From an uncultured Xylophilus sp. (GTDB taxonomy: Bacteria > Pseudomonadota > Gammaproteobacteria > Burkholderiales > Burkholderiaceae_C), in the NCBI GenBank assembly GCA_913776965.1, contig CAJYQL010000097.1:1-52532 (forward strand): 52,532 bases of DNA. Reading direction: 5' to 3'. The position numbers and the translations under genes are program-made. A model generated the notes under the pieces. That model saw nothing but the letters and a program-made list of their open reading frames with translations. It was not told the origin of the DNA and searched no databases. Positions 1 to 42,144 of the stretch are shown here, piece by piece (the stretch's first letter is position 1; each line of letters opens with the position of its first letter).

Positions 1-848
1 GCGCGGGCAACGACTTCGTCGTGCTCGACGAGACGCAGGGGCCGCTCGGCCTGTCCGCCGCGCAGTACCGCTTCCTCGCCGACCGCCATTTCGGCGTCGG
101 CGCCGACCAGGTGCTGTCGGTACGGCCGCCGCCGTCGCCCGACGTGGACTTCGAATACGTCATCCACAACGCCGACGGCGGCGAGGTTGAGCAGTGCGGC
201 AACGGCGCGCGCTGCTTCGCCCGCTACGTGCACCAGCGCGGCCTGACGGCGAAGGAGGTGATCCGCGTCGCCACCCGGGCCGGCACCATCGCGCCGCGGC
301 TCGATGCCGACGGCCGGGTGACGGTCGACATGGGCGCACCGGTGTTCGCGCCGGAGCAGGTGCCGTTCGACGATGCCGGCCTGTCGCCCCAGGCCGACGG
401 TGGGTGGCAGAAATGGCCGCTCGCGCTCGGTACGCGGGCGGATGATGCTATCGTTTCCGTAGCAATCCTGTCGATGGGCAATCCGCACGCGGTGCAGCTG
501 GTCGACGACGTGGACACCGCGCCGGTCGCCGAACAGGGCCCGTCGATCGAGCACCATCCCCGCTTCCCGAACCGGGTCAACGCCGGCTTCCTGCAGATCG
601 TCGACCGCGGCCGGGTGCGGCTGCGGGTGTACGAGCGCGGCGCCGGCGAAACGCTCGCCTGCGGCACCGGCGCCTGCGCAGCGGTGGTCGCCGGCATCCG
701 GCTCGGCCTGCTCGACGACCGCGTGAACGTCGAGACCCGCGGCGGCCGGCTCACCATCGCCTGGGCGGGCGGCACGGCACCGGTCCTGATGACCGGCCCG
801 GCCGTCACCGTCTTCGAAGGCCAGATCGACATTCCCGAGACCCTATGA
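1..848 (+). CDS. dapF: Diaminopimelate epimerase, 5'-truncated by window edge
   Basis: DapF interconverts LL- and meso-diaminopimelate, the last epimerisation before lysine and the source of the meso-DAP used by MurE further along this window. The frame is open from the first bases (AGNDFVVLD, the family's N-terminal signature), so only about ten N-terminal residues are missing. Both catalytic cysteines are visible, in EQCGNGARC and ACGTGACA, as is the SMGNPHAV motif. The stop overlaps the ATG of the DUF484 gene by 4 bases, so the two are probably coupled. Odd point: the stretch encoding about [19 protein letters not shown] (positions 409-465) is a copy of the interspersed two-hairpin repeat, read in frame as a loop before SMGNPHAV. 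The family assignment is certain. Confidence 0.96.
409..465 (-). repeat. Two-hairpin repeat, family 1, copy A (inside dapF)
   Basis: GCTATCGTTTCCGTAGCA (447-464) is identical over 18 bases to 8391-8408 in the hslV-hslU gap. Flanking GC-rich sequence is compatible with the diverged second hairpin. It is read through in frame within dapF. Confidence 0.65.
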
Positions 849-1570
849 CCGTTCCTTCCTCCCCCGCCTCCGATTCCGCCACCGCCGTCCCGCCGATCAC
901 CGAGGACGACATCGCCCACTTCCTGGCCAACACGCCCGACTTCTTCGAGCGCCATGCCGAACTGCTGGCCGAGGTGCAGCTGACCAGCCCGCACGGCAGC
1001 CGCGCGGTCAGCCTGCAGGAACGCCAGGCCACGATGCTGCGCGAGAAGATCAAGGGCCTGGAGCACCGGATCATGGAGATGGTCCGGCACGGCCACGAGA
1101 ACACGCTGATCGCCGATCGTTTCCAGCGCTGGGCGCTGGAACTCGTCGCCACCCGCGACGCCGTTGCACTGCCGGCCCGCATCGTCGAGCAGGCGCAGGA
1201 GCAGTTCCTGGTGCCGCAGGCGGCGATCCGCGTCTGGGACGTGGCGGCCGCCCATGCCGGCGCGCCGTTCGCCCAGGACGTGGGCGCCGACCTGCGGACC
1301 TTCGCCGCCTCGCTCGGCGAGCCGTACTGCGGGCCGAACCGCGGTTTCGAGGCGGTGCAGTGGCTCGACCGGCCGGCCGAGGCCGCGTCGCTCGCGCTGC
1401 TGCCGCTGCGTGCGCCGGTGTCGACAGGCGCGGCCGGCGGCGGCGCGGTGTTCGGCCTGCTGGTGCTCGCCTCGGGCGAGGCCGGGCGCTTCGACACCAC
1501 CATGGGCACCGACTTCCTGCAGCGCATGGCCGCCCTGGCCAGCGCCGCGCTGACCCGGCTGCAGGGCTGA
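845..1570 (+). CDS. DUF484 family protein
   Basis: A 241-residue protein of the DUF484 family, whose members commonly sit between dapF and xerC in proteobacteria; the same order is seen here. The N-terminal part (about residues 18-75) has the family pattern [16 protein letters not shown] followed by an amphipathic, probably coiled-coil stretch ([19 protein letters not shown]). The C-terminal two thirds resemble a GAF-like fold, consistent with what is known of DUF484. No enzymatic motif, signal peptide or membrane segment is visible. Its ATG overlaps the dapF stop. The biochemical function is not established; linkage with xerC suggests a housekeeping role but proves nothing. Confidence 0.88.
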
Positions 1571-1575
1571 GCGGC

Positions 1576-2637
1576 ATGCGGCCGACGGACGACGCGACAC
1601 CGGCGGCCTCCCGGCCCGTCTCTGCGTCCACTTCTCCGTCGGTCTCTTCGCCCGTTGCAGCGCCCGCGCCCGCGCCGGTCGATCCGCTGGTCGTCCGCTA
1701 CCTCGACCATGTGCGCTACGAGAAGCGCCTGGCCGACCGCACCACGACGCTCTACACCCTCGACCTGGAAAAGCTCGCCGCCGCCTGCGCCGCCGCCGGC
1801 ATCGCGCCCGCCGCCGCCACCCAGGCCCACATCCGCCGCTTCGTCGCGCAGATGCATGCATCGGGCCGCAGCGCCCGCGGCATCGCGCTGATCCTGTCGG
1901 GCTGGCGCAGCTTCTACACCTGGCTGGGGCGGGAGGGCCTGATCGCCCAGAACCCGGTGCAGACCGTGCGCGCGCCGAAGGCGCCCAAGCCGCTGCCGAA
2001 GGCGCTGCCGGTGGACGAGGCGATGCAGCTCGCCGATTTCTCCGCGCCCGCCGGCGAGGACGAGCAGGACGCCTGGCTCGACCTGCGCGACGCCACCATC
2101 GTCGAGCTGTTCTACGGCTGCGGCCTGCGGGTAGGCGAGTTGGTCGCGCTGGACGCGACCGCCTCGGCCGCCGCCCAAGCCGCCGGCCGGGGCTGGATCG
2201 ACCTGGCCGACGGCATGGCGCACGTCCGCGGCAAAGGCCGCAAGTGGCGCGCGGTGCCGATCGCCGGCAAGGCGGCGGAGGCGGTCGCGCTCTGGCTGCC
2301 GGTGCGCGCCTCCGGCCTGCCGGCCGACGCCGCCGACCAGCCGGCGCTGTTCCCCGGCCGGCGCGGCACCCGGCTCACGCCGCAGGCGGTCTGGCAACGG
2401 CTGCGCGGCCGCAGCGCCGCCGCCGGCCTGGCGACGCCGGTGCATCCGCACATGCTGCGCCACTCCTATGCGAGCCATCTGCTGCAGTCCAGCGGCGACC
2501 TGCGGGCGGTCCAGGAACTGCTCGGCCACGCCAGCATCGCCGCCACACAGGTCTACACCCGGCTCGACTTCCAGCACTTGGCACGCATCTACGACGCCGC
2601 CCATCCGCGGGCGGGCGTCAAGCTATCGAAAAAATAG
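1576..2637 (+). CDS. xerC: Tyrosine recombinase XerC
   Basis: XerC, with XerD, resolves chromosome dimers at dif. The 353-residue protein has the SAM-like N-terminal core-binding domain (about residues 35-135) and the catalytic domain. All catalytic residues are seen: R185 (GCGLRVGEL), K220 (RGKGRKWR), H292 and R295 (HPHMLRHSY), H318 (LLGHAS) and nucleophile Y327 (QVYTRLDF). The frame is open further upstream, but ATG 1576 lies just after the DUF484 stop and gives an about 35-residue Pro/Ser/Ala-rich tail before the conserved region. The last residues (KLSKK) and the TAG stop are supplied by an interspersed repeat (2622-2675). Context (dapF-DUF484-xerC) marks it as the housekeeping recombinase and not a phage or island integrase. 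Confidence 0.96.
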   Translation: MRPTDDATPAASRPVSASTSPSVSSPVAAPAPAPVDPLVVRYLDHVRYEKRLADRTTTLYTLDLEKLAAACAAAGIAPAAATQAHIRRFVAQMHASGRSARGIALILSGWRSFYTWLGREGLIAQNPVQTVRAPKAPKPLPKALPVDEAMQLADFSAPAGEDEQDAWLDLRDATIVELFYGCGLRVGELVALDATASAAAQAAGRGWIDLADGMAHVRGKGRKWRAVPIAGKAAEAVALWLPVRASGLPADAADQPALFPGRRGTRLTPQAVWQRLRGRSAAAGLATPVHPHMLRHSYASHLLQSSGDLRAVQELLGHASIAATQVYTRLDFQHLARIYDAAHPRAGVKLSKK

Positions 2638-2675
2638 CGCGCTGCGCAGGTGATGCCTGCGCAAAAGGCACTTTT
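2622..2675 (+). repeat. Two-hairpin repeat, family 1, copy C (xerC end)
   Basis: The best-formed copy. Hairpin 1: GCTAT, loop CGAAAAA, ATAGC (2622-2638). Hairpin 2: TGCGCAGG, loop TGATG, CCTGCGCA (2643-2663). It ends in AAGGCACTTTT. The xerC stop codon (2635-2637) lies within hairpin 1. It could also work as a weak terminator between xerC and rlmI. Confidence 0.8.
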
Positions 2676-2699
2676 CCTTCTCATATTGCCCGTTCTGCC

Positions 2700-3887: not shown

Positions 3888-3910
3888 CACGGCCCGGCCG
3901 TCGCTACACT
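3884..3910 (+). promoter_or_regulatory. Weak candidate promoter for the CobW-family gene
   Basis: CTGACA (3884-3889, five of six to the -35 consensus) and TACACT (3905-3910, four of six to the -10) are separated by only 15 bases, short of the optimum. The position fits a leader of about 40 bases before ATG 3957. Low confidence. Confidence 0.25.
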
Positions 3911-3956
3911 GCCGCGTTGCTTTCCCCGCCGGCCGCTGCGCCGGCCACGTCCCGCC

Positions 3957-5012: not shown

Positions 5013-5038
5013 CCGCGTTTTCGTGCCGACCCTGCCTA

Positions 5039-7685: not shown

Positions 7686-8252
7686 ATGGAACAGTCCCGC
7701 GAATCTCCCGTCTTCCACGGCACCACCATCCTCAGCGTCCGTCGCACCACGCCCCAGGGGGTGCAGGTGGCGATCGGCGGCGACGGCCAGGTGACCCTCG
7801 GCAACATCGTCGTCAAGGGCACCGCCCGCAAGGTGCGCAAGCTTCACCACGACCGGGTGCTGGCCGGTTTCGCCGGCGCCACGGCCGACGCGTTCACGCT
7901 GTTCGAGCGCTTCGAGGCCAAGCTGGAGAAGCACCAGGGGCAGCTGACCCGCGCCGCGATCGAGCTGACCAAGGAATGGCGCACCGACCGGGTGCTGCGC
8001 CGGCTGGAGGCGATGCTCGCGGTGGCCGACCGCACCGCCTCGCTGATCATCACCGGCAACGGCGACGTGCTGGAGCCGGAGCAGGGCATCGTCGCGATCG
8101 GCTCGGGTGGCGCCTACGCGCATTCGGCGGCGAAGGCGCTGCTGGACCACACCGACCTGGCGCCGGCCGACATCGTGAAGAAGTCGCTGGAGATCGCCGG
8201 CTCGCTGTGCATCTACACCAACATGAACCACACGATAGAACGCCTCGACTGA
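7686..8252 (+). CDS. hslV: ATP-dependent protease HslVU, proteolytic subunit HslV
   Basis: HslV is the proteasome-like peptidase of the cytoplasmic HslVU heat-shock protease. The 188-residue precursor carries 12 residues ([12 protein letters not shown]) before TTILSVRR; the first Thr of that pair is the catalytic N-terminal nucleophile, so the preceding residues must be removed. Many betaproteobacterial HslV have about six residues there (MEQFHG-like, from memory), so this propeptide looks expanded. The core GGDGQVTLG and the C-terminal [12 protein letters not shown] are typical. ATG 7686 is preferred over TTG 7650, which overlaps the heat-shock promoter. hslU follows after 178 bases of repeats instead of the usual short spacer. 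Confidence 0.95.
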
Positions 8253-8345
8253 CCCCAGGCTGCGCGCTGGCGCGCTCCGCCCACCCCCTTGCAGGGGGCA
8301 CCACCGGCGGACCGGCGGAGCCGGATCCGCGGTGGTTCCGGGAGA
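8253..8345 (+). repeat. GC-rich interspersed repeat, family 2
   Basis: Directly after the hslV stop lies about 93 bases with several nested inverted repeats: GCTGCGCGCTGGCGCGC near the start, CCCCCTTGCAGGGGG (8284-8298), and CCGGCGGACCGGCGG followed by GATCCGCGGTGGTTCC. I recall a very similar intergenic element being frequent in Comamonadaceae genomes; this is memory, not a search. Only one copy occurs in this window. Confidence 0.6.
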
Positions 8346-8348
8346 TCA

Positions 8349-8410
8349 GGTGCTTTTGGGGCTCCAGCGCTTATCCGGGCTGCGCGTGCAGCTATCGTTT
8401 CCGTAGCAAA
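8349..8410 (-). repeat. Two-hairpin repeat, family 1, copy B (hslV-hslU gap)
   Basis: Complete copy in minus orientation. GCTATCGTTTCCGTAGCA (8391-8408) is identical over 18 bases to the copy inside dapF (447-464). The rest (CCAGCGCTTATCCGG...TGCGCG) forms the second, weaker GCGC-based hairpin. It ends 20 bases before the hslU ATG, and so forms most of the hslU leader if hslU has its own transcript. Confidence 0.75.
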
Positions 8411-8430
8411 CCTCTTTTTTCGGATCTGCC

Positions 8431-9789
8431 ATGTCCTTTTCGATGACCCCGCAGGAGATCGTCTCCGAACTCGACCGCCACATCGTCGGCCAGCAGCAGG
8501 CCAAGCGGGCGGTCGCCATCGCGCTGCGCAACCGCTGGCGGCGCCAGCAGGTCGACGAGAAGCTGCGCCACGAGATCACGCCGAAGAACATCCTGATGAT
8601 CGGCCCGACCGGCGTCGGCAAGACCGAGATCGCGCGCCGGCTGGCCCGGCTGGCCGATGCGCCGTTCATCAAGGTCGAGGCGACCAAGTTCACCGAGGTC
8701 GGCTACGTCGGCAAGGACGTGGACTCGATCGTGCGCGATCTGGTCGAGGTGGCGGTCAAGCAAACCCGCGAGGCCGAGATGAAGAAGCACCGGCTGCGCG
8801 CCGAGGACGCCGCGGAGGACCGCATCCTCGACGTGCTGCTGCCGCCCGCCCGACCCACCGGCAGCGCCGCCGAATCGGTCGCCGCCGCGGCACCTGCGCC
8901 GGACGGCCCCGCGCGCCAGGCCTTTCGCAAGAAGCTGCGCGAGGGCCAGCTCGACGACAAGGAGATCGAGATCGACCTGGCCCAGCCGCCGAAATCGGTG
9001 GAGATCATGGGCCCCGCCGGCATGGAGGAGATGACCGAGCAGTTGCGCGGCATGTTCGGCCAGCTCGGCGGCGGCAAGCGCCACACCCGCAAGCTGCGCA
9101 TTGCCGAAGCGCTGCGCCTGCTGGCCGACGAGGAAGCCGCCAAGCTGGTCAACGAGGAGGAGTCGCGCGCCCGCGCGGTCGCCAACGCCGAGCAGAACGG
9201 CATCGTCTTCATCGACGAGATCGACAAGGTCACCGGCCGCAGTGGCGAAGGCGGCGGCAGTGGCGGCGAGATCTCGCGCCAGGGCGTGCAGCGCGACCTG
9301 CTGCCGCTGGTGGAGGGCACGACTGTCTCGACCAAGTACGGCATGGTCAAGACCGACCACATGCTGTTCGTCGCCTCCGGCGCCTTTCACCTGAGCAAGC
9401 CGAGCGACCTGATCCCGGAACTGCAGGGCCGCTTCCCGATCCGGGTCGAGCTGCAGTCGCTGTCGGTGGAGGACTTCGAGGCGATCCTGACGCAGACCCA
9501 TGCGTCGCTGGTCAAGCAGTACCAGGCGCTGCTGGCGACCGAGGGCGTGACGGTGGACTTTGCGTCCGACGGCATCACCCGGCTGGCCCGTATCGCCCAC
9601 GACGTGAACGAGTCCACCGAGAACATCGGCGCCCGGCGGCTGGCGACCGTCATGGAGCGGCTGCTCGACGAGGTGAGCTTCGATGCAGCCAAGCTCGCGG
9701 GCCAGACGGTGACGGTCGATGCGGCCTATGTGGACGCCCGGCTGGCCGAACTGAGCCGCGACGAGGACCTGTCGCGTTACATCCTCTGA
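8431..9789 (+). CDS. hslU: ATP-dependent protease HslVU, ATPase subunit HslU
   Basis: HslU is the hexameric AAA+ unfoldase that feeds substrates to HslV. The 452-residue protein has Walker A GPTGVGKT (residues 58-65), the GYVGKD pore-loop motif (about residue 91), Walker B IVFIDEID (about 258-264), an arginine finger region GRFPIRVEL (about R334), and a C-terminal tail SRYIL of the kind that docks into HslV. The intermediate (I) domain spans roughly residues 110-240. It pairs with hslV upstream, but the pair is split by two repeat elements, so separate or reduced expression relative to hslV is possible. Confidence 0.97.
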
Positions 9790-11778: not shown

Positions 11779-13526
11779 GCCGCAGCCGCAGCGTTCAGTA
11801 CACCACCAGCCCGCTGCTCGCGAGCAAGACGCCGGTCTGGCGCAGCAAGTTCATCGTCGCGGCGATCGCGCTCGGCTTCGTCGGGCTGGCCGGCCGCGCG
11901 GCCTACGTGCAGGTGATCGGCAACGACTTCTACCAGCGCCAGGGCGAGGTGCGCTTCGCCCGCACGCTCGAACTGCCGGCCAACCGCGGCCGCATCCTGG
12001 ACCGCAACGGGCTGCTGCTGGCGTCCAGCGTGATCGCCCCCAGCATCTGGGCGATCCCCGAGGACGTGGACCGCGACGATCCGGCGGTGCGGGCCAAGCT
12101 GAAACAGGTCGCGCGCCTGCTGGAGATGACGCCGGCCGCGCTCGACAAGAAGCTCGCCGACGAGGACAAGACCTTCGTCTGGATCCAGCGCCAGGTCGAC
12201 GAGCCGATCGCCAAGCAGATCGCCGCGCTCGACATCAAGGGCATCTACCAGCGCAAGGAATACAAGCGCCAGTATCCCGAGGGGGAGTCGGCGGCGCACA
12301 TCGTCGGCTTCACCAACGTCGAGGACCGCGGCCAGGAGGGCATCGAGCTCGCCTTCAACCAGGAGCTCGGCGGCAAGGCCGGCTCGCGGCGCGTGATCAA
12401 GGACCGGCTCGGCCGTATCGTGGAGGGCGTGGGCGAGACGGTCCCGCCGGTCGACGGCAAGGACATCCAGCTGTCGATCGACAGCAAGGTCCAGTTCTTC
12501 GCGTACCAGAAGCTGCGCGACCAGGTGATCGCGCAGAAGGCCAAGGCCGGCAGCGTGGTGGTGCTCGACACCGTGACCGGCGAGATCCTGGCACTCGCCA
12601 ACTACCCGAGCTACGTGCCCGACAAGCGGCAGAACCTGACCGGCGAACAGCTGCGCAACCGTGCGCTCACAGACACCTTCGAGCCCGGCTCGACGATGAA
12701 GCCGATCACCATCGCGACCGCGATGGAGCTGGGCCGGGTCAAGCCGCAGACGCTGATCGACACCTCGCCCGGCCGGTTGACGGTGACCGGCTCGACCATC
12801 ACCGACACGCACAACTACGGTATGCAGACGGTCGAGGGCGTGATCCAGAAGTCGAGCAACGTCGGTGCCACCAAGGTCGCGCAGAAGATGACGCCGCACG
12901 AGATGTGGGACAGCTTCTCGGCACTCGGCTTCGGGCAGAAGCCGCAGATCGCCTTCCCCGGCACGGTCAGCGGCCGACTACGGCCCTGGAAGACCTGGAA
13001 GCCGATCGAGCAGGCGACGATGTCGTACGGCTACGGCCTGTCGGCGAGCCTGTTCCAGATGGCGCGCTCGTACACCGCCTTCGCCCACGACGGCCAGATC
13101 ATCCCGGCCACCATCCTGAAGAGCGACCAGCCGGCCGTCGGCACGCAGGTGTTCACGGCGCAGAACGCGGCCTCGGTTCGGCACATGCTCTGGCTCGCCG
13201 CCGGACCGGGCGGCACCGGGCAGAAGGCGCAGACGGTCGGCTATTCCATCGGCGGCAAGTCGGGCACCGCGCGCAAGCAGGCGGGCAAGGGCTATGCGGC
13301 GGGCAAGTACCGCTCCTGGTTCACCGGCATGGCCCCGATCGAGAAGCCGCGCATCATCGTCGCGGTGATGGTGGACGAGCCCAACGCCGGCTCCTACTAC
13401 GGCGGCACGGTCGCCGGTCCGGTGTTCGGCGAGGTGGTGCAGCAGACGCTGCGCATGCTGGGCGTGCCGCCCGACATGGCGGTCAAGCCGCAGATCGTCG
13501 CCCAAGAGGTCGAGGAATCCTTCTGA
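11775..13526 (+). CDS. ftsI: Septal peptidoglycan transpeptidase FtsI (PBP3)
   Basis: FtsI cross-links septal peptidoglycan and partners FtsW, also encoded here. The 583-residue protein has one N-terminal membrane helix (about residues 29-50), a pedestal domain with NRGRILDRNG, and a class B transpeptidase domain. The active-site motifs are S306-T-M-K309, S360-S-N362 and K495-S-G-T. The first follows FEPGSTMKP, as usual. The stop overlaps the murE ATG (TGATG). Beta-lactam acylation of S306 is expected from the family. Confidence 0.97.
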   Translation: MSRSRSVQYTTSPLLASKTPVWRSKFIVAAIALGFVGLAGRAAYVQVIGNDFYQRQGEVRFARTLELPANRGRILDRNGLLLASSVIAPSIWAIPEDVDRDDPAVRAKLKQVARLLEMTPAALDKKLADEDKTFVWIQRQVDEPIAKQIAALDIKGIYQRKEYKRQYPEGESAAHIVGFTNVEDRGQEGIELAFNQELGGKAGSRRVIKDRLGRIVEGVGETVPPVDGKDIQLSIDSKVQFFAYQKLRDQVIAQKAKAGSVVVLDTVTGEILALANYPSYVPDKRQNLTGEQLRNRALTDTFEPGSTMKPITIATAMELGRVKPQTLIDTSPGRLTVTGSTITDTHNYGMQTVEGVIQKSSNVGATKVAQKMTPHEMWDSFSALGFGQKPQIAFPGTVSGRLRPWKTWKPIEQATMSYGYGLSASLFQMARSYTAFAHDGQIIPATILKSDQPAVGTQVFTAQNAASVRHMLWLAAGPGGTGQKAQTVGYSIGGKSGTARKQAGKGYAAGKYRSWFTGMAPIEKPRIIVAVMVDEPNAGSYYGGTVAGPVFGEVVQQTLRMLGVPPDMAVKPQIVAQEVEESF

Positions 13527-15076
13527 TGGCCGCCCCCGCGCTCCCGCCGCTCGACGGCGCCGGCGACGCCGTGGCCTGGCTGCGCGCGCGCGTGACCGGT
13601 ACGCTGCAGACCGACAGCCGCCGCGTCGGCCCGGGCGACGGCTTCATCGCCTGGCCCGGCGCCGCGACCGACGGCCGGGCCCATGTGCGGGCCGCCTTCG
13701 CGCAGGGCGCGGCGGCCTGCCTGGTGGAGCACGACGGCGCCGACGCCTTCGATGTCGGCACCGGCGACGTCGCCGCGCTGGCGGGCCTGAAGGCCGCGAC
13801 CGGCCCGATCGCGGCCGATTGGTTCGGCCGGCCGTCCGACCGGCTCGACCTGCTCGCGGTCACCGGTACCAACGGCAAGACCACCACCACCTGGTGGCTG
13901 GCGCAGGCGCTATCGAAAGTAGAGCACGCTGCGCAGACCCGGTGTGCGCTGGTAGGCACTTTGGGCACCGGAATCCCGCCGCAGGTCGACTACAACGGCC
14001 TGACCACTCCCGACCCGGTGCTGCTGCAGCGGGTGCTGCGCGGTTTCGTCGATGCCGGCGCTGGCGCCTGCGCGATCGAGGCCTCGTCCATCGGCATCGC
14101 CGAGCGCCGGCTCGACGGCTGCCGCATCCGCGTCGGCATCTTCACCAATTTCACCCAGGACCACCTCGACTACCACGGCACGATGGAGGCCTACTGGCAG
14201 GCCAAGGCCGGGCTGTTCGACTGGCAGGGCCTGCAGGCGGCGGTGGTCAACGCCGACGACGCAGCCGGCGCCGACCTGGCCCGCACACTGGCAGCCCGGC
14301 CGCTCGACCTCTGGACCTTCTCCTGCGGTGGCGCGGGCGCCGACACCGCACGGCTGCGCGCCGAGGCCATCGGCTACGGCAGCGACGGCCTGCGCTGCGT
14401 GGTGGTGGAGGGTGAGGATCACCAGCCGCTCGCCACCCGCGCGATCGGCCACTACAACCTCTACAACCTGCTCGGCGTGGTCGGCACGCTGCGGGCGCTG
14501 GGCGTGCCGCTCGCCGCGGCGGTCGCGGCCTGCCACGGGCTGGGTGCGGTTCCGGGCCGGATGGAATGCGTGGTGCGCGACGGCGCGCCGCTGGTCGCGG
14601 TGGACTATGCCCACACCCCCGACGCGATCGCGCAGGCGCTCGCCGCGCTGCGGCCGCTGGCCGACGAGCGCGGCGGCGCCCTGGTCTGCGTGTTTGGCTG
14701 CGGCGGCGACCGCGACGGCAGCAAGCGCCCGCGCATGGCCGCTGCGGCGGCCGCCGGCGCCGACAAAGTCTGGCTGACCAGCGACAACCCGCGCCGCGAG
14801 GACCCTCTGGCGATCCTGGCGCAGGCGGCGGCCGGACTGCCGCCCGGTCACCCGACGCAGCAGGAGCCCGACCGCGCGCGCGCCATCGCCGCCGCGATCG
14901 CCGCGGCCGGTCCGCACGACGTGGTGCTGCTCGCCGGCAAGGGCCACGAGGACTACCAGGAGATCGCCGGCGTGCGGCGCCCGTTCTCGGACCGTGCGGA
15001 GGCCGAACGGGCCCTCGCAGCCTACCGGTCCGGCACGGCGGCACGGCACGACGCCGCACAGGAGACCGCGCGATGA
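13526..15076 (+). CDS. murE: UDP-MurNAc-L-Ala-D-Glu:meso-diaminopimelate ligase MurE
   Basis: MurE adds meso-DAP to the UDP-MurNAc dipeptide in the cytoplasm. The 516-residue protein has the N-terminal UDP-binding domain, the ATP loop GTNGKTTTTW (about residue 114), the carbamylated-lysine region (YWQAKAGLF), and the C-terminal ligase domain with the meso-DAP selecting motif DNPRREDP. Gram-negative context and DNPR support DAP over lysine. Odd feature: residues about 128-146 (SKVEHAAQTRCALVG) are encoded by a copy of the family 1 repeat (13909-13965), just after the ATP loop. The start ATG 13526 overlaps the ftsI stop; the stop overlaps murF by 4 bases. Confidence 0.97.
   Translation: MAAPALPPLDGAGDAVAWLRARVTGTLQTDSRRVGPGDGFIAWPGAATDGRAHVRAAFAQGAAACLVEHDGADAFDVGTGDVAALAGLKAATGPIAADWFGRPSDRLDLLAVTGTNGKTTTTWWLAQALSKVEHAAQTRCALVGTLGTGIPPQVDYNGLTTPDPVLLQRVLRGFVDAGAGACAIEASSIGIAERRLDGCRIRVGIFTNFTQDHLDYHGTMEAYWQAKAGLFDWQGLQAAVVNADDAAGADLARTLAARPLDLWTFSCGGAGADTARLRAEAIGYGSDGLRCVVVEGEDHQPLATRAIGHYNLYNLLGVVGTLRALGVPLAAAVAACHGLGAVPGRMECVVRDGAPLVAVDYAHTPDAIAQALAALRPLADERGGALVCVFGCGGDRDGSKRPRMAAAAAAGADKVWLTSDNPRREDPLAILAQAAAGLPPGHPTQQEPDRARAIAAAIAAAGPHDVVLLAGKGHEDYQEIAGVRRPFSDRAEAERALAAYRSGTAARHDAAQETAR
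13909..13965 (+). repeat. Two-hairpin repeat, family 1, copy D (inside murE)
   Basis: GCTATCGAAA, CGCTGCGCAG and AGGCACTTT are each identical, in the same order and spacing class, to the copy after xerC (2622-2675). The whole element is translated as part of MurE without frameshift or stop. Confidence 0.75.
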
Positions 15077-20743: not shown

Positions 20744-21807
20744 TGGCGAAGACCGCACTCGTCATGGCCGGCGGCACCGGCGGCCACATCTTCCCGGGCA
20801 TCGCGGTCGCCGAGGCACTGCGTGCGGAGGGCTGGCAGGTGCACTGGGTCGGCGCGCCCGCGCCCAGCATGGAGGCGCGCCTGGTGCCGCCGCGCGGCTT
20901 CGCGTTCGAGCCGGTCGCCTTCGGCGGCGTGCGCGGCAAGGGGCCGGTCACGCTCGCGCTGCTGCCGTTGCGGCTGCTGCGCGCCTTCTGGCAGAGCCTG
21001 GCGCTGGTGCGCCGGGTGAAGCCCGACGTCGCCATCGGTCTGGGCGGCTACATCGCGTTCCCCGCCGGCCTGATGGCCGTGCTGAGCTGGAAGCCGCTGG
21101 TGGTGCACGAGCAGAACTCCGTCGCCGGCCTGGTCAACCGCATCCTGGCACTGGTCGCCGACCGGACCTACACCGCTTTCCCCGGCGTGCTGAAGACCGG
21201 CGAGTGGATCGGCAACCCGCTGCGCGCCGCGTTCACGCAGCAGCCGGCGCCGGCCGAGCGCTTTGCCGGCCGCAGCGGCCCGCTGCGGCTGCTGGTGGTC
21301 GGCGGCAGCCTGGGCGCCGCGGCGCTCAACGAGGTGGTGCCGCAGGCCCTGGCGCTGCTGCCTGAGGCACAGCGGCCGCAGGTCCTGCACCAGAGCGGCG
21401 AAAAGCAGATCGATGCGCTGCGGGCCCACTACGCCCGCGCCGGCGTGGCGGCCGAACTCACCCCCTTCATCGACGACACCGCCCGCGCCTTCGCCGACGC
21501 CGACATCGTGGTCGGCCGGGCCGGCGCCAGCACCGTCACCGAGATCGCCGCCGTCGGCGCGGCCGCGCTGTTCGTGCCGTTCCCGCATGCGGTGGACGAC
21601 CACCAGACCGCCAACGCCCGCTTCCTGGCCGATGCCGGTGCGGCCTGGCTGGTGCAGCAGCGCGACCTCACCCCGCAGGGCCTGGCCGACCTGCTGCGCG
21701 GCCTGACCCGCGACGAACTCCGCACCCGCGCCGAGCGCGCCCGGGCCTTGGCCAAGACCGATGCGGTCGGCGCGATCGTGGCCGCCTGCCAGGAACTGAC
21801 GACGTGA
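20743..21807 (+). CDS. murG: UDP-GlcNAc:undecaprenyl-PP-MurNAc-pentapeptide transferase MurG
   Basis: MurG converts lipid I to lipid II on the inner face of the cytoplasmic membrane. The 354-residue GT-B enzyme shows the N-terminal glycine loop [17 protein letters not shown], the acceptor-side motif [14 protein letters not shown], and the donor-binding [15 protein letters not shown] with [13 protein letters not shown]. It lies between ftsW and murC with overlapping junctions on both sides. Confidence 0.97.
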
Positions 21808-23240
21808 AGCACGCCATCCGCCATATCCATTTCGTCGGCATCGGCGGTGCCGGCATGAGCGGCATCGCCGAGGTGCTGTCCAACCTGGGTTACACCGTCT
21901 CGGGCTCCGACCTGTCGGACGGCGCCACGCTGCAGCGGCTGCGGGCGCTCGGCATCCGGACCTGCGTCGGCCACGACGCGGCCCATCTGGGCGCGGCCGA
22001 CGCGGTCGTCACCTCGACCGCAGTGCAGGCCAGCAACCCCGAGGTCGTCGCCGCACGCGCCCGCAAGATCCCGGTGGTGCCGCGCGCCGTGATGCTCGCC
22101 GAGCTGATGCGGCTCAAGCAGGGCATCGCCATCGCCGGCACCCACGGCAAGACCACCACCACCAGCCTCGTCACCAGCGTGCTCGCCGAGGCCGGGCTCG
22201 ACCCGACCTTCGTGATCGGCGGCAAGCTCAACAGCGCCGGTGCCAACGCACGGCTGGGGCAGGGCGACTACATCGTGGTGGAGGCCGACGAATCCGACGC
22301 CTCCTTCCTCAACCTGCTGCCGGTGATGGCGGTCGTCACCAACATCGACGCCGACCACATGGAAACCTACGGCCACGACTTCGGCCGGCTGAAGGGTGCC
22401 TTCGTCGATTTCCTGCACCGCATGCCGTTCTACGGCGCGGCAGTGCTGTGCATCGACGACCCGGCGGTGCGCGAGATCGCGCCGCAGGTGACCTGCCCGG
22501 TGACCAGCTACGGCTTCTCCGAGGACGCGCAGGTCCGGGCGGTGGACGTGCGGCCCGATGCCGGCCGCATGCGGTTCACCGTGCAGCGGCGCACCGGCGA
22601 GGCGCTGCCCGACCTGGACATCGTGCTCAACCTGCCGGGCGAGCACAATGTGCTGAATGCGCTGTCGGCGATCGCGATCGCCGGACGGCTCGACATTCCC
22701 GACGCGGCGGTGCAGAAGGCGCTCGCCGGCTTCCACGGCGTGGGCCGCCGTTTCCAGCGCTACGGCGAACTGCCCGCAGCCGGCGGCGGGACGTTCACCC
22801 TGATCGACGACTACGGCCACCACCCGGTGGAGATGGCCGCCACCCTGTCGGCCGCGCGCGGCGCCTTTCCGGACCGCCGGCTGGTGCTGGCCTTCCAGCC
22901 CCACCGCTACACCCGCACCCGCGACTGCTTCGAGGACTTCGTGAAGGTCATCGGCCAGTACGCCGACGCGGTGCTGCTGGCCGAGGTCTATGCCGCCGGC
23001 GAGGCGCCGATCGCCGCCGCCGACGGCCGCACCCTGGTGCGGGCACTGCGCCTGGCCGGCCGGGTCGAGCCGGTGTTCGTCGATGCCGTCGCCGCGATGC
23101 CGCAGGCCATCGTCGAACGCGCGCGCGACGGCGACGTGGTGATCTGCATGGGCGCGGGCTCCATCGGCGCGGTGCCGGGTCAGGTCGTGGAATTGCTACG
23201 AAATAAAGAGCAGGATATGAAGCAGGGACGGGCGCAATGA
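21804..23240 (+). CDS. murC: UDP-N-acetylmuramate:L-alanine ligase MurC
   Basis: MurC adds the first amino acid, L-Ala, to UDP-MurNAc. The 478-residue protein starts with GTG overlapping the murG stop. Motifs: [16 protein letters not shown] for UDP binding, [12 protein letters not shown] (ATP loop, about residue 111), [10 protein letters not shown], and the C-terminal DDYGHHPVE. Its last about 16 residues ([15 protein letters not shown]) are encoded by a diverged family 1 repeat, which also covers the ddlB start. Confidence 0.97.
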
Positions 23241-23250
23241 GCGTTTTTGG
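23193..23250 (+). repeat. Two-hairpin repeat, family 1, copy E (murC-ddlB junction, diverged)
   Basis: TTGCTACGAAATAAAGAGC at its start resembles the TTGCTAC...TAGC end of other copies, and GGGCGCAATGAGCGTTTTT resembles GGGCGCA...GATTTT of copies F and G. It supplies the end of murC and the ATG of ddlB. The similarity is lower than for other copies, so the call is tentative. Confidence 0.45.
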
Positions 23251-24226
23251 TCAAGAATCGCGGTCGTTCGGCAAGGTCGCGGTGCTGATGGGCGGCGCGT
23301 CGGCCGAGCGGCAGGTGTCGCTGATGTCGGGCGGCGGCGTGCTGGAGGCGCTGCGGGCGCGCGGCGTCGACGCCCACGCCTTCGATCCCGCCGAGCGCGA
23401 TTTGTCGTTGTTGAAGGCCGAGGGCTTCGAACGCTGCTTCATCGCCCTGCACGGCCGCTTCGGCGAGGACGGCACGGTGCAGGGCACGCTCGAACTGCTC
23501 GGCATCCCCTACACCGGCCCGGGCGTGCTGCCGTCGGCGATCGCGGTGGACAAGGTCATGACCAAGCGCCTGTGGCTGGCCGACGGCCTGCCGGTGCCGC
23601 GCTACGTCCGCCTGGCCGCCGGCCAGCAGGATGCGGCGCAATTGCAGGCGGTACCGGACGTGCTCGGCCTGCCGCTGATCGTCAAGCCGCCGCGCGAGGG
23701 TTCTTCCATCGGCGTGAGCAAGGTGCGTGAGGCCGGTGCGCTCGGCGATGCGGTCGCGCTGGCCGGCCGCTACGACCCGGACGTGCTGTGCGAGGAATTC
23801 ATCGACGGCGAGGAATACACCTGCCCGGTGCTCGGCACCGGTGCCGACGCCCGCGCGCTGCCGGTGGTGCGCATCGTGGCGCCCGGCGGCCTGTACGACT
23901 ACCAGAACAAGTACTTCACCGACGACGTGCGCTACGACTGCCCGAGCGGCCTGCCAGCGGCGGAGGAAGCCGAACTGCAGCGCCTGGCGCTGGCCGCCTA
24001 CCGCGCGCTCGGCTGCCGCGGCTGGAGCCGTGCCGACTTCATGGTGCGTGCGAGCGACCGCCGGCCATTCCTGATCGAGATGAATACCTCGCCGGGCATG
24101 ACCTCGCATTCGCTGGTGCCGATGTCGGCCCGCGCCGCCGGCATCTCCTACGAGGACCTGTGCCTGCGCATCCTGGCGTCGGCCAGCCTCGACTACTCGG
24201 CCGCGCAGCGCGCCGCGAAAGCCTGA
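23237..24226 (+). CDS. ddlB: D-alanine:D-alanine ligase DdlB
   Basis: DdlB makes the D-Ala-D-Ala used by MurF. The 329-residue ATP-grasp enzyme shows [33 protein letters not shown], the omega-loop-like [14 protein letters not shown], and the metal-binding [18 protein letters not shown] near the C-terminus. ATG 23237 overlaps the murC stop by 4 bases and falls inside a repeat copy. ftsQ starts 4 bases after the stop. Confidence 0.96.
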
Positions 24227-30314: not shown

Positions 30315-30863
30315 CTAGTAACTGCGCCCGTTCCGGTACATCGCGTGCTGTCGGCGTTGTAACGGCGCAACTTCTTCCAGCCGCGCCATCGCCTGGCCCG
30401 CATGGGCGTGCACCACCGCGAGGCCGAGCGCATCGGCGGCGTCCGGCCCCGGGAGGGCCGGCAACTGCAGCAGCCGGCGCACCATCTCCTGCACCTGCGC
30501 CTTGGCGGCGCGGCCGTGGCCGACGACGGCCTTCTTCATCTGCAGGGCGGTGTACTCGGCCACAGGAAGGTCGCGCGACACCAGGGCGGTGATGCAGGCC
30601 CCGCGTGCCTGTCCGAGCAGCAGGGTGGACTGCGGGTTGACGTTGACGAACACGATCTCCACCGCCGAGCTGTCGGGCTGGTAGCGCTCGGCCACCTCGC
30701 GCACGCCGTCGTAGAGCACCTTGATCCGGCCCGGCAGGTCGCCGAGCGGCAGGTGGGTGGTGCGGATCGTGCCGCTCGCGACATAGCGCAGGGCATGACC
30801 GTCGAGGTCGAGCACGCCGAAGCCGGTGGTCTGCAGACCGGGGTCGATACCGAGAATACGCAT
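30315..30863 (-). CDS. ruvC: Holliday junction resolvase RuvC
   Basis: RuvC cuts Holliday junctions with RuvAB during recombination repair. The 182-residue protein has [15 protein letters not shown] with the first catalytic Asp (D7), the Glu in SAVEIVFVN (about residue 68), and the C-terminal acidic pair in [16 protein letters not shown]. ruvA and ruvB are not adjacent here. A family 1 repeat (30873-30930) lies directly upstream and so occupies its promoter or leader region. Confidence 0.96.
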
Positions 30864-30872
30864 GCGAGGGGT

Positions 30873-30930
30873 TTGCTACTGAATCGATAGCGAACTGCGC
30901 AGGTGCAGCGGGCGCAAAGGGCGGATTTTG
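30873..30930 (+). repeat. Two-hairpin repeat, family 1, copy F (ruvC-kinase gap)
   Basis: GCTACTGAATCGATAGC forms the first hairpin (GCTA/TAGC), and TGCGC...GCGCA the second. The 23 bases 30894-30916 are identical to 42108-42130 in copy G, 11 kb away. It fills most of the 84-base gap between ruvC and the sensor kinase gene. Confidence 0.8.
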
Positions 30931-30947
30931 TCGAAAAAGATGTCGGC

Positions 30948-33404
30948 TCAGCCGGCCGACGGCCGCGCCATGATGCCGTTCACCTTGGCCACGAGCTGTT
31001 CCGCACCGAACGGCTTCACCAGCAGTTCCATCGCCTGCCCGAGGAAGCTGGCGCGCATCGTGGCCTGCTCGGCGTAGCCGGTCATCAGCACGATGCGAAT
31101 GCCGGGCAGCCGTTCGCGGGCGTAGTCGGCGAGCTGCCGGCCGTTCGGGCCGGGCAGGCCCATGTCGGTCAACAGAAGGTCGAAGCGTAGCGCGCCCGAC
31201 AGCAGCGTCATGCCCTCGCTGCCGTCGGCGGCCTCCATCACTTGGTAGCCCTGTTCCTGCAGCAGGTCGACCACCAGCTGCCGCACCACCGCATCGTCCT
31301 CGACCACCAGCACCGATTCGGGCCGCGAATCGGACGGCTCGGCGGCCGCGCCCAGCAGGGCGGCGTCGCGCACGATGGCCGCGAAGCCGGTGCTGCGCGG
31401 CAGGTAGAGCTTGACGGTGGTTCCCTCGCCGACGGTGCTGTCGATCGCCGTATAGCCGCCGGACTGGCGGGCGTAGCCGTAGATCATCGACAGGCCAAGG
31501 CCGGTGCCCTGGCCGATCGGCTTGGTGGTGAAGAACGGGTCGAAGGCCTTGGCGATCACGTCCTCGGTCATGCCGACGCCGGTGTCCTGCACCGCCACCC
31601 GCAGGTAGTCGCCGGGCTCCAGCCCGCGCACGCCGGCGACCGCCTTGTCGGTCAGCGTCAAGTTCTCGGCGACCACGGTCAGCGTGCCGCCGTCGGGCAT
31701 GGCGTCGCGGGCGTTGATCGCGAGGTTGAGGATCGCGTTGTGGAACTGGGGCAGGTCGGTGATGGCCGGCCACAACGCCGGCTGCAGCTCGAAGCGCAGT
31801 GCGATGTTCTCGCCGACCGTGCTGCGCAGCATGCCTTCGAGCTCCAGCAGCGCCTCGGCGATGTCCACCGCCTTGGAGTCGAGCGGCTGGCGCCGCGAGA
31901 AGGCGAGCAGCCGCTGCGTCAGGCTGGCGGCGCGCTGCGCGGAGGACAGGCCGGCCGCCGCATAACGCTCCACCCCGTCGAGTTCGCCGGCCTGCGCGCG
32001 GCGCTGGATCAGCTGCAGCGGCACGACGATGCCCTGCAGCATGTTGTTGAAATCGTGCGCGATGCCGCCGGTCAGCTGGCCGATCGCTTCCATCTTCTGC
32101 GACTGGCGCAGCTGCTCCTCGGTCTGTGCCAGGGCCTCCGCGCGCTCCCGCTCGGCGGTCACGTCGCGGCCCACCGCGTAGAGGCGGCCGGTCTCGTGCT
32201 CGTGCGTCGCCACCCAGGCGATCGCGCGATAGCGGCCGTCGGCATGGCGCATCCGGACGGTGAAGGCGATGGACGTGTCGCCCTCGGCGCTGCCGAGCGC
32301 CGTCGCGGCTTCGGCGACGTCGTCGGCGTAGAGCAGGGCGGACAGGGCGCCGCCGGCAAGCGTCTTTTCCGCATGTCCGAGGACCTGCGTCCAGGCCGGG
32401 TTCAGCGCCTCTAGCCGGCCCGCGCCGTCGATGATCGCCTTCAGGTAGGGCGAGCTGCGCCACCAGCGCGCCAGTTCGCGGCTGCGCTCTTCCACCCGCG
32501 CTTCGAGGGTGTCGGCCAGCTCCTGCAGCCGCTGCCGTGCCAGGTGCTCGGCGGTGACGTCGTTGCCTTCGACGAAGATGCCGTCCATCTCGCCCGCGGC
32601 ATTGCGCACCGGCTGGTAGAGGAAGTTCAGGTAGTGCAGCCGCTCTGCAGTGCCGGGCAGGGCGATGCGGACCGGTACGCCGGCGCCGACGTACGGCACG
32701 CCGGTCCGGTAGACCTGGTCGAGCAGTTCGACGAAACGCTGGTCGACCAGCTCCGGCAGCATCTCGCGGATCGTGCGGCCGGTCGGGTCGCGCTGGCGCA
32801 TCAGGCGCCGGCAGGCGGCGTTGGCCATCTCCACCCGGTGGTCCGGGCCGCGCAGGAAGGCGATGAAGCTGGGCGCCTGCTCGAAGAGTTCCTGCAGGCG
32901 GCCGAATTCCGCCGACCGCGCCTGGCGGGCGTGCACCTCGTGGGTGGTTTCGCGGCAGGCGCAGAACACGCCGGCGACGACGCCTTGTTCGTCGCGCACC
33001 GGCGTGTACGACAGGGCGAAATGCGCCCGCTCCGGGTAGCCGTTGCGCAGCACGGTGTAGGCGGCGTCTTCCTGGTGAATACCTTCGCCGTCGAGGACGC
33101 GGCGCAGGACCGGTACCAGTTCCGGCCAGACCTCGGGCCAGACATCCCGGAACGGCCGGCCGAGTGCCGCCGGATGCCGCTGGCCCAGGATGCGTGCGTA
33201 GCCGTCGTTGTAGAGCAGCGTGCATTCCGCGCCCCAGATCAGCCGCATCGGCTGCTCCGCCCCCAGCATGATGCCGACCACCGTGCGCAGCGGATGCGGC
33301 CAGCTCATCGGGTCGCCGAGCGGCGTACTGCGCCAGTCCAGCGAGCGCATCTGTGCGCCGACCGCGCCGCCGCCGGCCAGGAAGTTCGCGTCGGATTCGG
33401 GCAT
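30948..33404 (-). CDS. PAS-domain hybrid sensor histidine kinase
   Basis: An about 818-residue hybrid kinase without membrane segments, so probably cytoplasmic. Three PAS-like sensor regions are seen (about residues 25-150, 160-285 and 310-430), the second and third separated by a coiled coil ([20 protein letters not shown]). The phosphoacceptor histidine is in [11 protein letters not shown] (about residue 450), as in the HisKA group that includes RegB/NtrB-like kinases. The ATPase has [19 protein letters not shown] and [12 protein letters not shown] receiver domain (about 697-818) has VVEDD, the phosphorylated Asp in [10 protein letters not shown] (about 746), and the Lys in LVKPFG. No DNA-binding response regulator is adjacent. 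GTG 33422 would add six residues. The signal is unknown. Confidence 0.88.
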
Positions 33405-37289: not shown

Positions 37290-37375
37290 GGTGCAGGCCG
37301 GGCGGGGGAGGGTGGGAACGAGGCGGGAGAAAGGGCCCGTATTTTGCACGCACGTCCCGGGCGCCTCTTCGCCAA

Positions 37376-37409
37376 TTTAGTTGACAACTAAACTATTGAC
37401 GCATAGATT
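37376..37409 (+). promoter_or_regulatory. Promoter of the catabolic island with overlapping 17-bp palindromic operator
   Basis: TTTAGTTGACAACTAAA (37376-37392) is a perfect palindrome around one central base. Its middle contains TTGACA (37381-37386), a consensus -35; TAGATT (37404-37409) is a fair -10 after a 17-base spacer. GAGGG (37428-37432) is a ribosome site 9 bases before the ATG at 37442. Palindromes of this kind and place are typical for MarR repressors, and a MarR gene lies in the operon. The region is AT-rich compared with its surroundings. Confidence 0.75.
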
Positions 37410-37441
37410 GGCTGCATCTTGGCGCCCGAGGGCTGTTCACC

Positions 37442-39802: not shown

Positions 39803-40578
39803 TGGGGGCGTCGCTGCAGGGCCGCCACGCGGTCGTCACCGGCGCGGGACGGGGCATCGGCGCGGCGATCGCCGAGCGCCTAGCGGCCGAGGGCGCGGTG
39901 CTCACGCTGCTGGGCCGCAACCTCGACACGCTGCAGGCGCTGGCCGCGCGGCTGCCGGCGTCGGCTCGGGCGCTGCCGGTGGCCTGCGACATCACCTCGG
40001 ACGCGAGCGTGACGGAGGCCTTCGCTGCGGCGCGGGCCGCGTCCGGACCGGTCGCGGTGCTCGTCAACAACGCCGGCCAGGCCGAGAGCGCGCCCTTCCA
40101 CCGGATCGACGCCGACCACTGGCAGCGCATGCTGGAGGTGAACCTCACCGGCACCTTCCGCTGCATCCAGGCGGCGCTGCCGGACCTGCTCGCGGCCGGG
40201 GCGGGCCGCATCGTCAACGTCGCGAGCACCGCCGGGCTGCGCGGCTACGCCTATGTGGCGGCCTATGCCGCGGCAAAGCACGGCGTGGTCGGCCTGACCC
40301 GCTCGCTGGCGCTGGAACTGGCCGCCAAGGGCATCACCGTCAACGCGGTCTGCCCGGGCTACACCGACACCGACATCGTCCGCGACAGCGTGGCGCGCAT
40401 CGTCGCCAAGACCGGCCGTAGCGCCGAGGCGGCGCAGGCCGAGTTCGTTCGCGGCAACCCGCAGCGCCGGCTGGTCGCGCCGGCCGAAGTGGCCGACACG
40501 GTCGCTTGGCTCTGCGGCGACGGCGCGGCGGCGGTCACCGGACAGGCGATCTCGGTCTCCGGCGGCGAGGTGATGTGA
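39802..40578 (+). CDS. SDR family oxidoreductase, probable hydroxyacyl-CoA dehydrogenase
   Basis: A 258-residue short-chain dehydrogenase. NAD(P) motif VTGAGRGIGAAIAERL (TGxxxGIG), NNAG in VLVNNAGQAES, catalytic Ser in VNVASTAG and YxxxK in YAAAKHG. C-terminal PGYTDTDIV and the last strand ITVSGGEVM-like (ISVSGGEVM) are standard. The gene overlaps the monooxygenase/reductase stop, so the two are made together. In the pathway it would oxidise a hydroxy group formed after hydration of the reduced ring-CoA; this is inferred from the neighbours. The residue after the second strand (GRN) hints at NADP or NAD equally. Confidence 0.88.
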   Translation: MGASLQGRHAVVTGAGRGIGAAIAERLAAEGAVLTLLGRNLDTLQALAARLPASARALPVACDITSDASVTEAFAAARAASGPVAVLVNNAGQAESAPFHRIDADHWQRMLEVNLTGTFRCIQAALPDLLAAGAGRIVNVASTAGLRGYAYVAAYAAAKHGVVGLTRSLALELAAKGITVNAVCPGYTDTDIVRDSVARIVAKTGRSAEAAQAEFVRGNPQRRLVAPAEVADTVAWLCGDGAAAVTGQAISVSGGEVM

Positions 40579-40579
40579 C

Positions 40580-41218
40580 ATGGGCCGCCCCGTTCCGCTC
40601 GTACTTGCCTCCGTTCCCGCGCCGGTCCTCGACGACGACCGCATCGGGCACGAGGCCCGGGCCGTCGCAGGCGACCACATCGACCTGAAGATCTGGCTGC
40701 GCCTGCTGGCCTGCAGCACCCAGATCGAGCAGCAGATCCGCCAGCGGCTGCGCACCCGCTTCGGCACCACGCTCGCGCGCTTCGACTACCTGGCGCAGCT
40801 GCAGCGCCACCCGGACGGCCTGCGCATGAACGCGCTGTCGCGCTACCTGATGGTGACCGGCGGCAACATCACCGGCCTGACCGACCAACTGGCCAAGGAA
40901 GGCTTGGTCGAGCGGGTCGATGATCCGGAGGACCGGCGTTCCTGGCGGGTGACGCTCACCGCCCGCGGCTGCACCGAATTCGCCGCGATGGCCACCGAGC
41001 ACGAGGGCTGGCTCGCCGGCATGTTCGCGGAGCTGGCGCTGGCCGACAAGGAAACGCTGTACGACCAACTCGGCCGGCTGCGCGTGCTGCTGGCCCGCCA
41101 CGAAACCGCGCACGACGCCGCGCCCGACCACCCTGACGCCGCGCCGCCCGCCGCTGACGCGCCGGCGCCGCGCGCCGCTCGCAAGACCCCGACCCCCCGC
41201 AGGAGACCCGCCCCGTGA
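40580..41218 (+). CDS. MarR family transcriptional regulator
   Basis: A 212-residue protein with a MarR winged helix. The core (about residues 35-165) includes [16 protein letters not shown], recognition region [20 protein letters not shown], and the wing [15 protein letters not shown]. Both ends are extended; the last 45 residues are Ala/Pro/Arg-rich. MarR proteins are usually ligand-released repressors of their own catabolic operons; here the likely ligand is the aromatic acid or its CoA ester. The perfect palindrome at 37376-37392 is the obvious candidate target, with 43389-43412 a second possibility. The gene lies inside the operon, and its stop overlaps the crotonase GTG. Confidence 0.9.
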
Positions 41219-42069
41219 CCGCATCCGCCATCGATCCCGCACTGCTCGCCGGCAACCGCCAGGCCCTCGCCGGCTACCAGGCGACCCATTTCCTCTGGAG
41301 CGTGGCCGACGGTGTCGGCACCATCACCCTCAACCGGCCCGAGCGCAAGAACCCGCTCACCTTCGATTCGTACGCCGAACTGCGCGACCTGTTCCACCGC
41401 CTGCGGCAGGCGACCGACGTGCATGCGGTGGTGCTGCAGGGCGCCGGCGGCAACTTCTGCTCGGGCGGCGACGTGCACGAGATCATCGGCCCGCTGGTGC
41501 AGCTGAAGGCGCCCGAGCTGCTGCTGTTCACCCGCATGACCGGTGCGCTGGTGTCGGAGATGCGGCACTGCCCGCAGCCGATCGTCGCGGCCATCGACGG
41601 CGTCTGCGCCGGGGCCGGCGCGATCATGGCGATGGCGTCGGACCTGCGGCTCGGCACTACGCGCAGCAAGACCGCCTTCCTGTTCAACCGCGTCGGCCTG
41701 GCCGGCTGCGACATGGGCGCCTGCGCGATCCTGCCGCGCATAGTCGGCCAGGGCCGGGCGTCGGAGCTGCTCTACACCGGCCGCGCGCTGCCGGGCGACG
41801 AGGCCGAGCGCTGGGGCTTTCTGAACCGCCTGTGCGAGCCCGACGCGCTGGCCGCCGAGGCGCAGAAGCTGGCGCAGGACATCGCCGCCGGCCCGACCTT
41901 CGCCAACGGCATCACCAAGACGATGCTGCACCAGGAATGGGCGATGACGGTGGACCAAGCGATCGAGGCCGAGGCCCAGGCCCAGGCGCTCTGCATGCTG
42001 ACCGGCGACTTCGACCGCGCCTACCGCGCCTTCGTGGACAAGCGGCGGCCGGTGTTCGAAGGTAACTGA
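41215..42069 (+). CDS. Enoyl-CoA hydratase/isomerase (crotonase) family protein lacking the usual Glu pair
   Basis: A 284-residue crotonase-fold protein. The oxyanion-hole segments are visible: [15 protein letters not shown] and [17 protein letters not shown]. By eye alignment with enoyl-CoA hydratase, the two catalytic glutamates (E144 and E164 of the rat enzyme) are replaced, in GAIMAM and in [10 protein letters not shown]; an Asp in GCDMGAC may serve instead, as in other crotonases with SGCDxG. The reaction could therefore be hydration, isomerisation or ring hydrolysis of a cyclic CoA intermediate. GTG 41215 overlaps the marR stop. A family 1 repeat follows before the acyl-CoA dehydrogenase. 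Confidence 0.87.
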
Positions 42070-42086
42070 CGGCCCCCGCTGCGCGT

Positions 42087-42144
42087 TTGCTCACTTTTCG
42101 ATAGCTGACTGCGCAGGTGCAGCGGGCGCAGAAGCACGATTTTC
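42087..42144 (+). repeat. Two-hairpin repeat, family 1, copy G (inside catabolic operon)
   Basis: Located in the 114-base gap between the crotonase and acyl-CoA dehydrogenase genes. Bases 42108-42130 are identical to 30894-30916 (copy F). TTTTCGATAGC and GATTTT at the ends also match other copies. It shows that the element also lies within the accessory region. Confidence 0.8.

Follow-up and report, generated by a model that had tools for sequence, protein, structure and literature searches.

A dispersed two-palindrome element in Comamonadaceae resembles a DNA recognition tag more than it does a simple jumping repeat

We analyzed a window of 52,532 nucleotides (contig CAJYQL010000097.1, positions 1 to 52,532, assembly GCA_913776965.1) from an uncultured Xylophilus sp., in which a preliminary description had noticed seven copies of a short two-hairpin element, and comparison with further sequence of this genome and with related genomes confirmed this dispersed seven-copy element. 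It is present in several hundred copies per genome, occupies codons of purK and rsmB without changing the length of these genes, recurs at the same sites across genera, exists in clade-specific dialects, is distributed among genomes in an all-or-none manner, and is scarce in low-GC DNA, most of which lies on one contig. With these properties the element resembles a tag for DNA recognition more than a simple jumping repeat. We favor, with somewhat less than even confidence, the interpretation that it serves throughout the genome as a double-stranded DNA recognition motif, one that is maintained at its sites and not only inserted, and that this motif is most likely a self-DNA tag resembling the uptake sequences of other bacteria.

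A covariance model, R1, was built from 76 copies of this genome (G000), including six of the seven window copies, the diverged copy at 23193 lying outside the training set. R1 matched all seven, and its weakest match was that diverged copy (23190-23269, 28.5 bits, E-value 9.8e-5). The copies were found where they had been described, those at 409 and 8349 being on the minus strand, and the shared runs of 18 and 23 identical bases are indeed present in the sequence. Across 547.5 kb of this genome, 58 copies scored at least 26.8 bits (7 in the 52.5-kb window and 51 in the remaining 495 kb of the sample), which corresponds to about 430 copies per genome and bears out the hundreds that had been anticipated. 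In 400 kb obtained after R1 was built (L166-L185), 41 copies reached the same score, of which 39 were new and 2 were training copies recurring. A hidden Markov model (HMM) made from the copies in R1 recovered 52 copies in 548 kb at a 20-bit cut-off. At 15 bits or more it found no match in Markov-simulated sequence of equal size, so that the copies exceed the chance expectation as proposed, and none in 144,676 bases of the congeners G003 and G004. Whole-genome scans at an E-value of 0.01 gave one match in G003 and none in G004.

The alignment of the 76 copies is mostly ungapped, with conserved positions distributed over about 65 columns, and the element measures about 65 to 70 bases; the earlier figure of about 55 bp was too short. 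Its parts are arranged in the order palindrome 1, GCTAY(N7)RTAGC; a short linker; palindrome 2, GCGC...GCGC, spanning about 19 bases; GGC..ATTTT; and a weak GAAA, the weak third part of the element being ATTTC..GAAA. The RTAG of palindrome 1 is found in 70/76 copies and takes the form GTAG in only 16/76, the center of this palindrome is purely A/T in 48/52 copies, and a tail of TTT (27 copies) or AAA (9 copies) is found in 36/52. Palindrome 1 (alignment columns 10 to 18) often has one intact half, either TCG on the left or CGA on the right, and the two flips are about equally common. This half-site rule has a P value of 0.034 on the 52 contig-sample copies; the value of 7.5e-5 on 76 copies comes from a set that was partly collected with a pattern favoring the rule.

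Where the element lies in purK and rsmB, the encoded residues show no gap in alignments with the two best PDB homologues of each protein. Codon alignments of the two genes comprised 17 genomes, 12 element-rich and 5 element-poor (G003, G004, G011, G013, and G019), and the element was identified with R1 and with R2, a multi-dialect model. In purK, the models match the element at equal codons in 9/12 element-rich genomes, namely, this genome (R1, 38.4 bits) and G005, G006, G008, G010, G015, G016, G020, and G021 (R2, 20.9 to 64.2 bits), and in 0/5 element-poor genomes. Palindrome 1 alone is visible by eye in G001 and G002, nothing is visible in G009, and a 10-residue insertion beside the element site in G015 is an exception to the gapless alignment. 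In rsmB, the element is matched in 6/12 element-rich genomes (this genome, G006, G009, G010, G016, and G021) and again in 0/5 element-poor ones. The G+C content at third codon positions (GC3) of the purK codons under the element is 0.24 to 0.48 in the nine model-matched genomes and 0.57 to 0.71 in G001 and G002, compared with 0.76 to 1.00 in the five element-poor genomes and 1.00 in G009; outside these codons, purK has a GC3 of 0.78 to 0.96. Judged from these alignments, the element in purK and rsmB is apparently written in without lengthening the genes, and simple insertion thus fails for such in-gene copies. The presence of a GC-poor element at equal codons across genera, in genes with a GC3 near 0.9, implies that active upkeep is needed. 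Orthologous segments of leuS, gspF, and proA are likewise equal in length in the element-poor congeners G003 and G004. We dropped dapF as a clean in-place case because DapF, although equal in length in G003 and G004, is longer than its PDB matches at the site, and the in-place argument therefore rests on purK and rsmB.

The element is conserved beyond this genome. Judged by Ddl, the named relatives closest to this genome are Variovorax, Hydrogenophaga, and Acidovorax (about 76% identity), which places it in Comamonadaceae. Among 10 relatives, whose compared stretches do not all cover every site, the place and strand of the copy are shared by 4 at dapF, 5 at murE, 4 at murC/ddl, and 4 upstream of ruvC. 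At the ddl loci of named genomes, 17/80 carry a match at an E-value of 0.01, including Acidovorax (9/9), Polaromonas (4/7), Comamonas (1/2), Delftia (1/2), and also Simplicispira, with one weak match among three Rhodoferax and none in Variovorax (0/12), so that the element is present in several genera of Comamonadaceae, for which the preliminary description had mentioned similar sequences. R2 was used to scan 100 genomes of the family, a grouping that may exceed Comamonadaceae, at an E-value of 0.001, and it gave at least 40 matches in 26 genomes, 15 to 39 in 6, 1 or 2 in 10, and none in 58. The distribution is thus all-or-none, with at least 15 matches in 32 genomes, 0 to 2 in 68, and 3 to 14 in none. 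G003 and G004 are element-poor within an otherwise element-rich clade, which suggests wholesale loss.

Palindrome 2 is clade specific. It reads GCGCAGG..CCTGCGC or a variant here, GCCCAGG..CCTGGGC in G005 and G006, GCCGGCG..CGCCGGC in G001 and G002, and GCGCTTG..CAAGCGC in other genera. Both arms change together (88 cells versus 40.7 ± 5.8 in shuffled data, 0/500), a count obtained on 62 chosen copies of related sequences with few dialect shifts behind it. Leave-one-out assignment placed 71/76 copies in their own dialect group. One alternative for such conserved sites is that they bind a chromosomal protein of nucleoid, segregation, or repair function and are each kept by selection. The conservation of orthologous sites across genera agrees with this, as do the lack of a fixed orientation relative to genes in the 52-copy sample, the A/T center of palindrome 1 with the TTT/AAA tail, and the suitability of both palindromes for dimer binding. 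We consider it unlikely, however, since hundreds of sites would need to follow every dialect change, the copies show no regular spacing (coefficient of variation, 1.1), and no candidate protein was found.

Positions relative to genes were assigned to 52 copies with a crude gene caller, which called 81% of the sample coding. By this measure 42/52 copies lie outside genes or overlap gene ends, and a preference for genic sites, which had been suggested, is not borne out. The 10 copies inside genes are a minimum because the caller classed as intergenic the proA copy (L045:16605), which lies within proA codons 13 to 34; one of the 10 covers merely the last codons of an HlyD-type gene. The genes with internal copies are rsmB, a DUF3025 gene, an M1 peptidase gene, the HlyD-type gene, an outer-membrane efflux gene, dprA, purK, leuS, dapF, and murE, and the copies occur in either orientation and leave the reading frame open. 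Among the 42 extragenic copies, 17 lie between convergent genes (4 to 5 expected), 18 between co-directional genes, and 7 between divergent genes; in four copies, at an overlap of 17, the upstream gene has its stop codon within palindrome 1. The excess between convergent genes, the T run that comes after the GC-rich palindrome 2, and the pairing of palindrome 2 kept across dialects would suit an element acting at the RNA level, such as a transcription terminator or an mRNA processing hairpin. This explanation appears improbable: a terminator belongs at transcript ends and not within genes, and at least 10/52 copies lie in genes, including leuS, murE, dapF, and purK, in either orientation, where a terminator would harm. 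In addition, AAA replaces the TTT tail in 9/52 copies, and the window has no Rfam match at gathering scores. A within-genome RNA hairpin was rejected as well, as RNAalifold gave two pairs and pair counts showed no covariation within the genome.

Rickettsia palindromic elements are palindromic in-frame insertions in coding sequence, and at least 10/52 of the copies described here resemble them in being palindromic and in lying within open reading frames. Ancient in-frame insertions of this type would be consistent with the lengths of MurE and DapF given below. They are already contradicted in purK and rsmB, which show no insertion, and 42/52 copies are classed as extragenic; we regard this origin as very improbable.

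The preliminary description had likened the element to repetitive extragenic palindromic (REP) sequences or miniature inverted-repeat transposable elements (MITEs), knew of no mobilizing enzyme, and proposed a search for a REP-associated tyrosine transposase (RAYT). That the element is dispersed in hundreds of copies, most of them extragenic or at the ends of genes, stands; simple insertion in genes and the link to a RAYT do not. No gene with the Y1 domain (PF01797) was found in this genome or in the congener G001. Among the 100 family genomes, Y1 is present in 27/32 element-rich and 46/68 element-poor ones (P = 0.09, not significant) and absent in 5/32 element-rich ones, and RAYT was therefore rejected as the mover. 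R1, which represents the dialect of this genome, matched near only 1/12 Y1 loci (L155), and 11/12 of these loci (L154-L165) carry a different motif, TCTGACCC. The Y1 genes there (mostly about 234 amino acids, beginning MARLPRL...) lie near 1.5 to 2.6 kb of L154-L165, and the gene just downstream in 11/12 loci is one that we take to be gltB; these 11 loci are the ones with TCTGACCC, which suggests a separate Y1/REP system. The orthologous site of one intergenic copy (L045:5637) is near-empty in G003 and G004 (6 and 10 nt), as expected of a mobile element, but the segments of leuS, gspF, and proA are equal in length. It could still be supposed that a REP- or MITE-like nonautonomous element was moved in an ancestor by an enzyme since lost here and that the copies within genes survived and were adjusted by selection. 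That palindrome 1 extends from CTAY to RTAG, calling to mind a hairpin preceded by a cleavage site and guide, would fit this scenario together with the near-empty site and the opposite orientations of copies at hslV-hslU, and dispersed palindromes with a clade-specific stem and RTAG before it are shared with REP/RAYT (REPIN) systems. The element differs from those systems in the lack of a RAYT in the genome, in GTAG at the stem foot not being conserved, and in the in-gene copies without insertion, which make such a history rather unlikely.

Under our favored reading, in which the element is a self-DNA tag, a trans-acting recognizer would exist, and copies matching it would be favored by biased copying (molecular drive), as with the DNA uptake sequences (DUS) of Neisseriaceae and Pasteurellaceae. 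The likeliest recognizer would be the type IV pilus uptake machinery, with the element marking self DNA for transformation. A lineage that lost the recognizer would then lose its sites, coding ones reverting to GC-rich codons and intergenic ones vanishing. Biased uptake and recombination of this kind could account for the in-place origin, the dialects, the wholesale loss, the scarcity in low-GC DNA, and the placement at gene ends. The element shares with DUS and with the uptake signal sequences (USS) of Pasteurellaceae the hundreds of copies, in-gene sites without insertion, gene-end sites, clade dialects, and naturally competent relatives (PMC3630211, PMC4212676). DUS have been described with dialects and with intragenic and terminator-paired sites (PMC3630211). 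Verminephrobacter eiseniae is reported to take up DNA selectively, to resist competition by foreign DNA, and to require type IV pili, with no signal named, and Acidovorax temperans to be transformed solely by DNA of its own species (PMC4212676). A more far-reaching proposal, which we hold to be possible but doubtful, is that Comamonadaceae have a third kind of uptake signal, a tag with clade dialects that comprises two palindromes in about 65 bases and is much longer than DUS or USS. Its upkeep would have altered both codons and residues in essential enzymes (purK, rsmB, leuS, the mur genes, and dapF), and its loss would erase hundreds of sites.

Several observations weigh against an uptake tag. 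The element, at 65 bases and with two palindromes, is not a short word, known uptake words having about 9 to 12 bases and USS with flanks about 30. The pairing of palindrome 2 is retained across dialects, which an uptake word does not need, and of 25 in-gene copies picked by hand only 15 were placed in the dialect group to which they belong. The segment of murE is 80 to 89 nt in element genomes versus 68 nt in G003 and G004, i.e., 12 to 21 nt (4 to 7 residues) longer, and DapF exceeds its two best PDB matches by about 10 residues. The copies at the hslV-hslU site are in the opposite orientation in G009, G010, G016, and G021, which looks like a new insertion or replacement, and together with the near-empty site in G003 and G004 this indicates that intergenic copies turn over. 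The scarcity in low-GC DNA (2 copies in 10 low-GC 10-kb windows, versus 49 in the 44 others; P = 0.002) would favor a tag, but 9 of the 10 windows lie on one contig, including the 72-kb stretch described below, and low GC is a proxy for foreign DNA. The same-species-only transformation of Acidovorax may stem from recombination and not from uptake. Finally, no recognizer or receptor was found, ComEC (PF03772) being the only uptake gene searched for. ComEC is present in 31/32 element-rich and 63/68 element-poor genomes (P = 0.66), and G063 is element-rich without a ComEC match; ComEC thus fails as a discriminating gene. As a separate observation, the ComEC domain of G009, the element-rich genome without a purK copy, lies in three short pieces (G009:C1:1836740-1837544), as if from a broken gene or frameshifts.

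Parts of the element may have been recorded before. A 2017 paper gives the spaced motifs GCTTAT(N)5AAGCG for Acidovorax ebreus TPSY (114 copies) and ATAGCT(N)22CAAAAG for Polaromonas naphthalenivorans CJ2 (125 copies), with 44/107 and 34/101 intergenic copies, respectively, between convergent genes; it offers the word pairs without explanation, dialects, or in-gene sites (PMC5217627). Judged from the published words, the first fits palindrome 2 as it reads in the common dialect and the second fits the stretch from palindrome 1 onward, and on our reading both word pairs would be parts of this element, which may account for motifs left unexplained at the time. A literature search, with subscription papers mostly outside its scope, turned up neither the whole element nor an uptake sequence in Comamonadaceae. 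The element is a concrete candidate for the self-DNA signal of Verminephrobacter and perhaps of Acidovorax. Whatever its function, a 65-base sequence at equal codons in essential genes across genera, with dialects, points to a genomic force beyond insertion alone.

Copies of the element in the window, with R1 scores, gene assignments, and genomes carrying a copy at the same site
Location	Positions	Strand	R1 score (bits)	Gene assignment	Copy at same site
In dapF (21-848, +), antisense	389..468	-	44.9	DAP_epimerase (Pfam)	Equal place and strand: G009, G010, G016, G021
Over 3' end of tyrosine-recombinase gene (1711-2637)	2617..2696	+	56.8	Phage_integrase (Pfam)	
Between hslV-like proteasome-subunit gene (7686-8252) and hslU-like AAA ATPase gene (8431-9789)	8333..8412	-	61.6	Pfam	
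In Mur ligase gene (13526-15076; taken as murE), sense	13904..13983	+	42.1	Pfam	Equal place: G005, G009, G010, G016, G021
Diverged; over end of Mur ligase gene (21804-23240; taken as murC) and ddl start (23237-24226)	23190..23269	+	28.5	Pfam	Equal place: Acidovorax, Comamonas granuli, Delftia acidovorans, Polaromonas, Simplicispira
Just upstream of ruvC (30315-30863, -), antisense to ruvC	30870..30949	+	63.7	RuvC (Pfam)	Equal place and strand: G002, G006, G009, G021 (each mapped via one flank)
Between enoyl-CoA hydratase gene (41215-42069) and acyl-CoA dehydrogenase gene (42184-43368)	42084..42163	+	62.8	Pfam	

Palindrome 1 of the dapF copy is at 447-463, and the TAG stop of the tyrosine-recombinase gene comes from palindrome 1 of its copy. 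In the comparison of segment lengths with G003 and G004, the copies at 30870 and 42084 gave no alignment. Beside the hslV-hslU copy, the window carries a second, unrelated dispersed repeat (8253-8344) with a CCCCCTTGCAGGGGG core, of which there are dozens among the matches listed over G001, G002, G005, and G006. Elsewhere in this genome, a 72-kb low-GC stretch (G000:C25, about 65 to 137 kb, L035-L170) has no copy of the element at 20 bits or more; it carries ArsB, an AAA ATPase, and a DDE transposase and looks like a genomic island.

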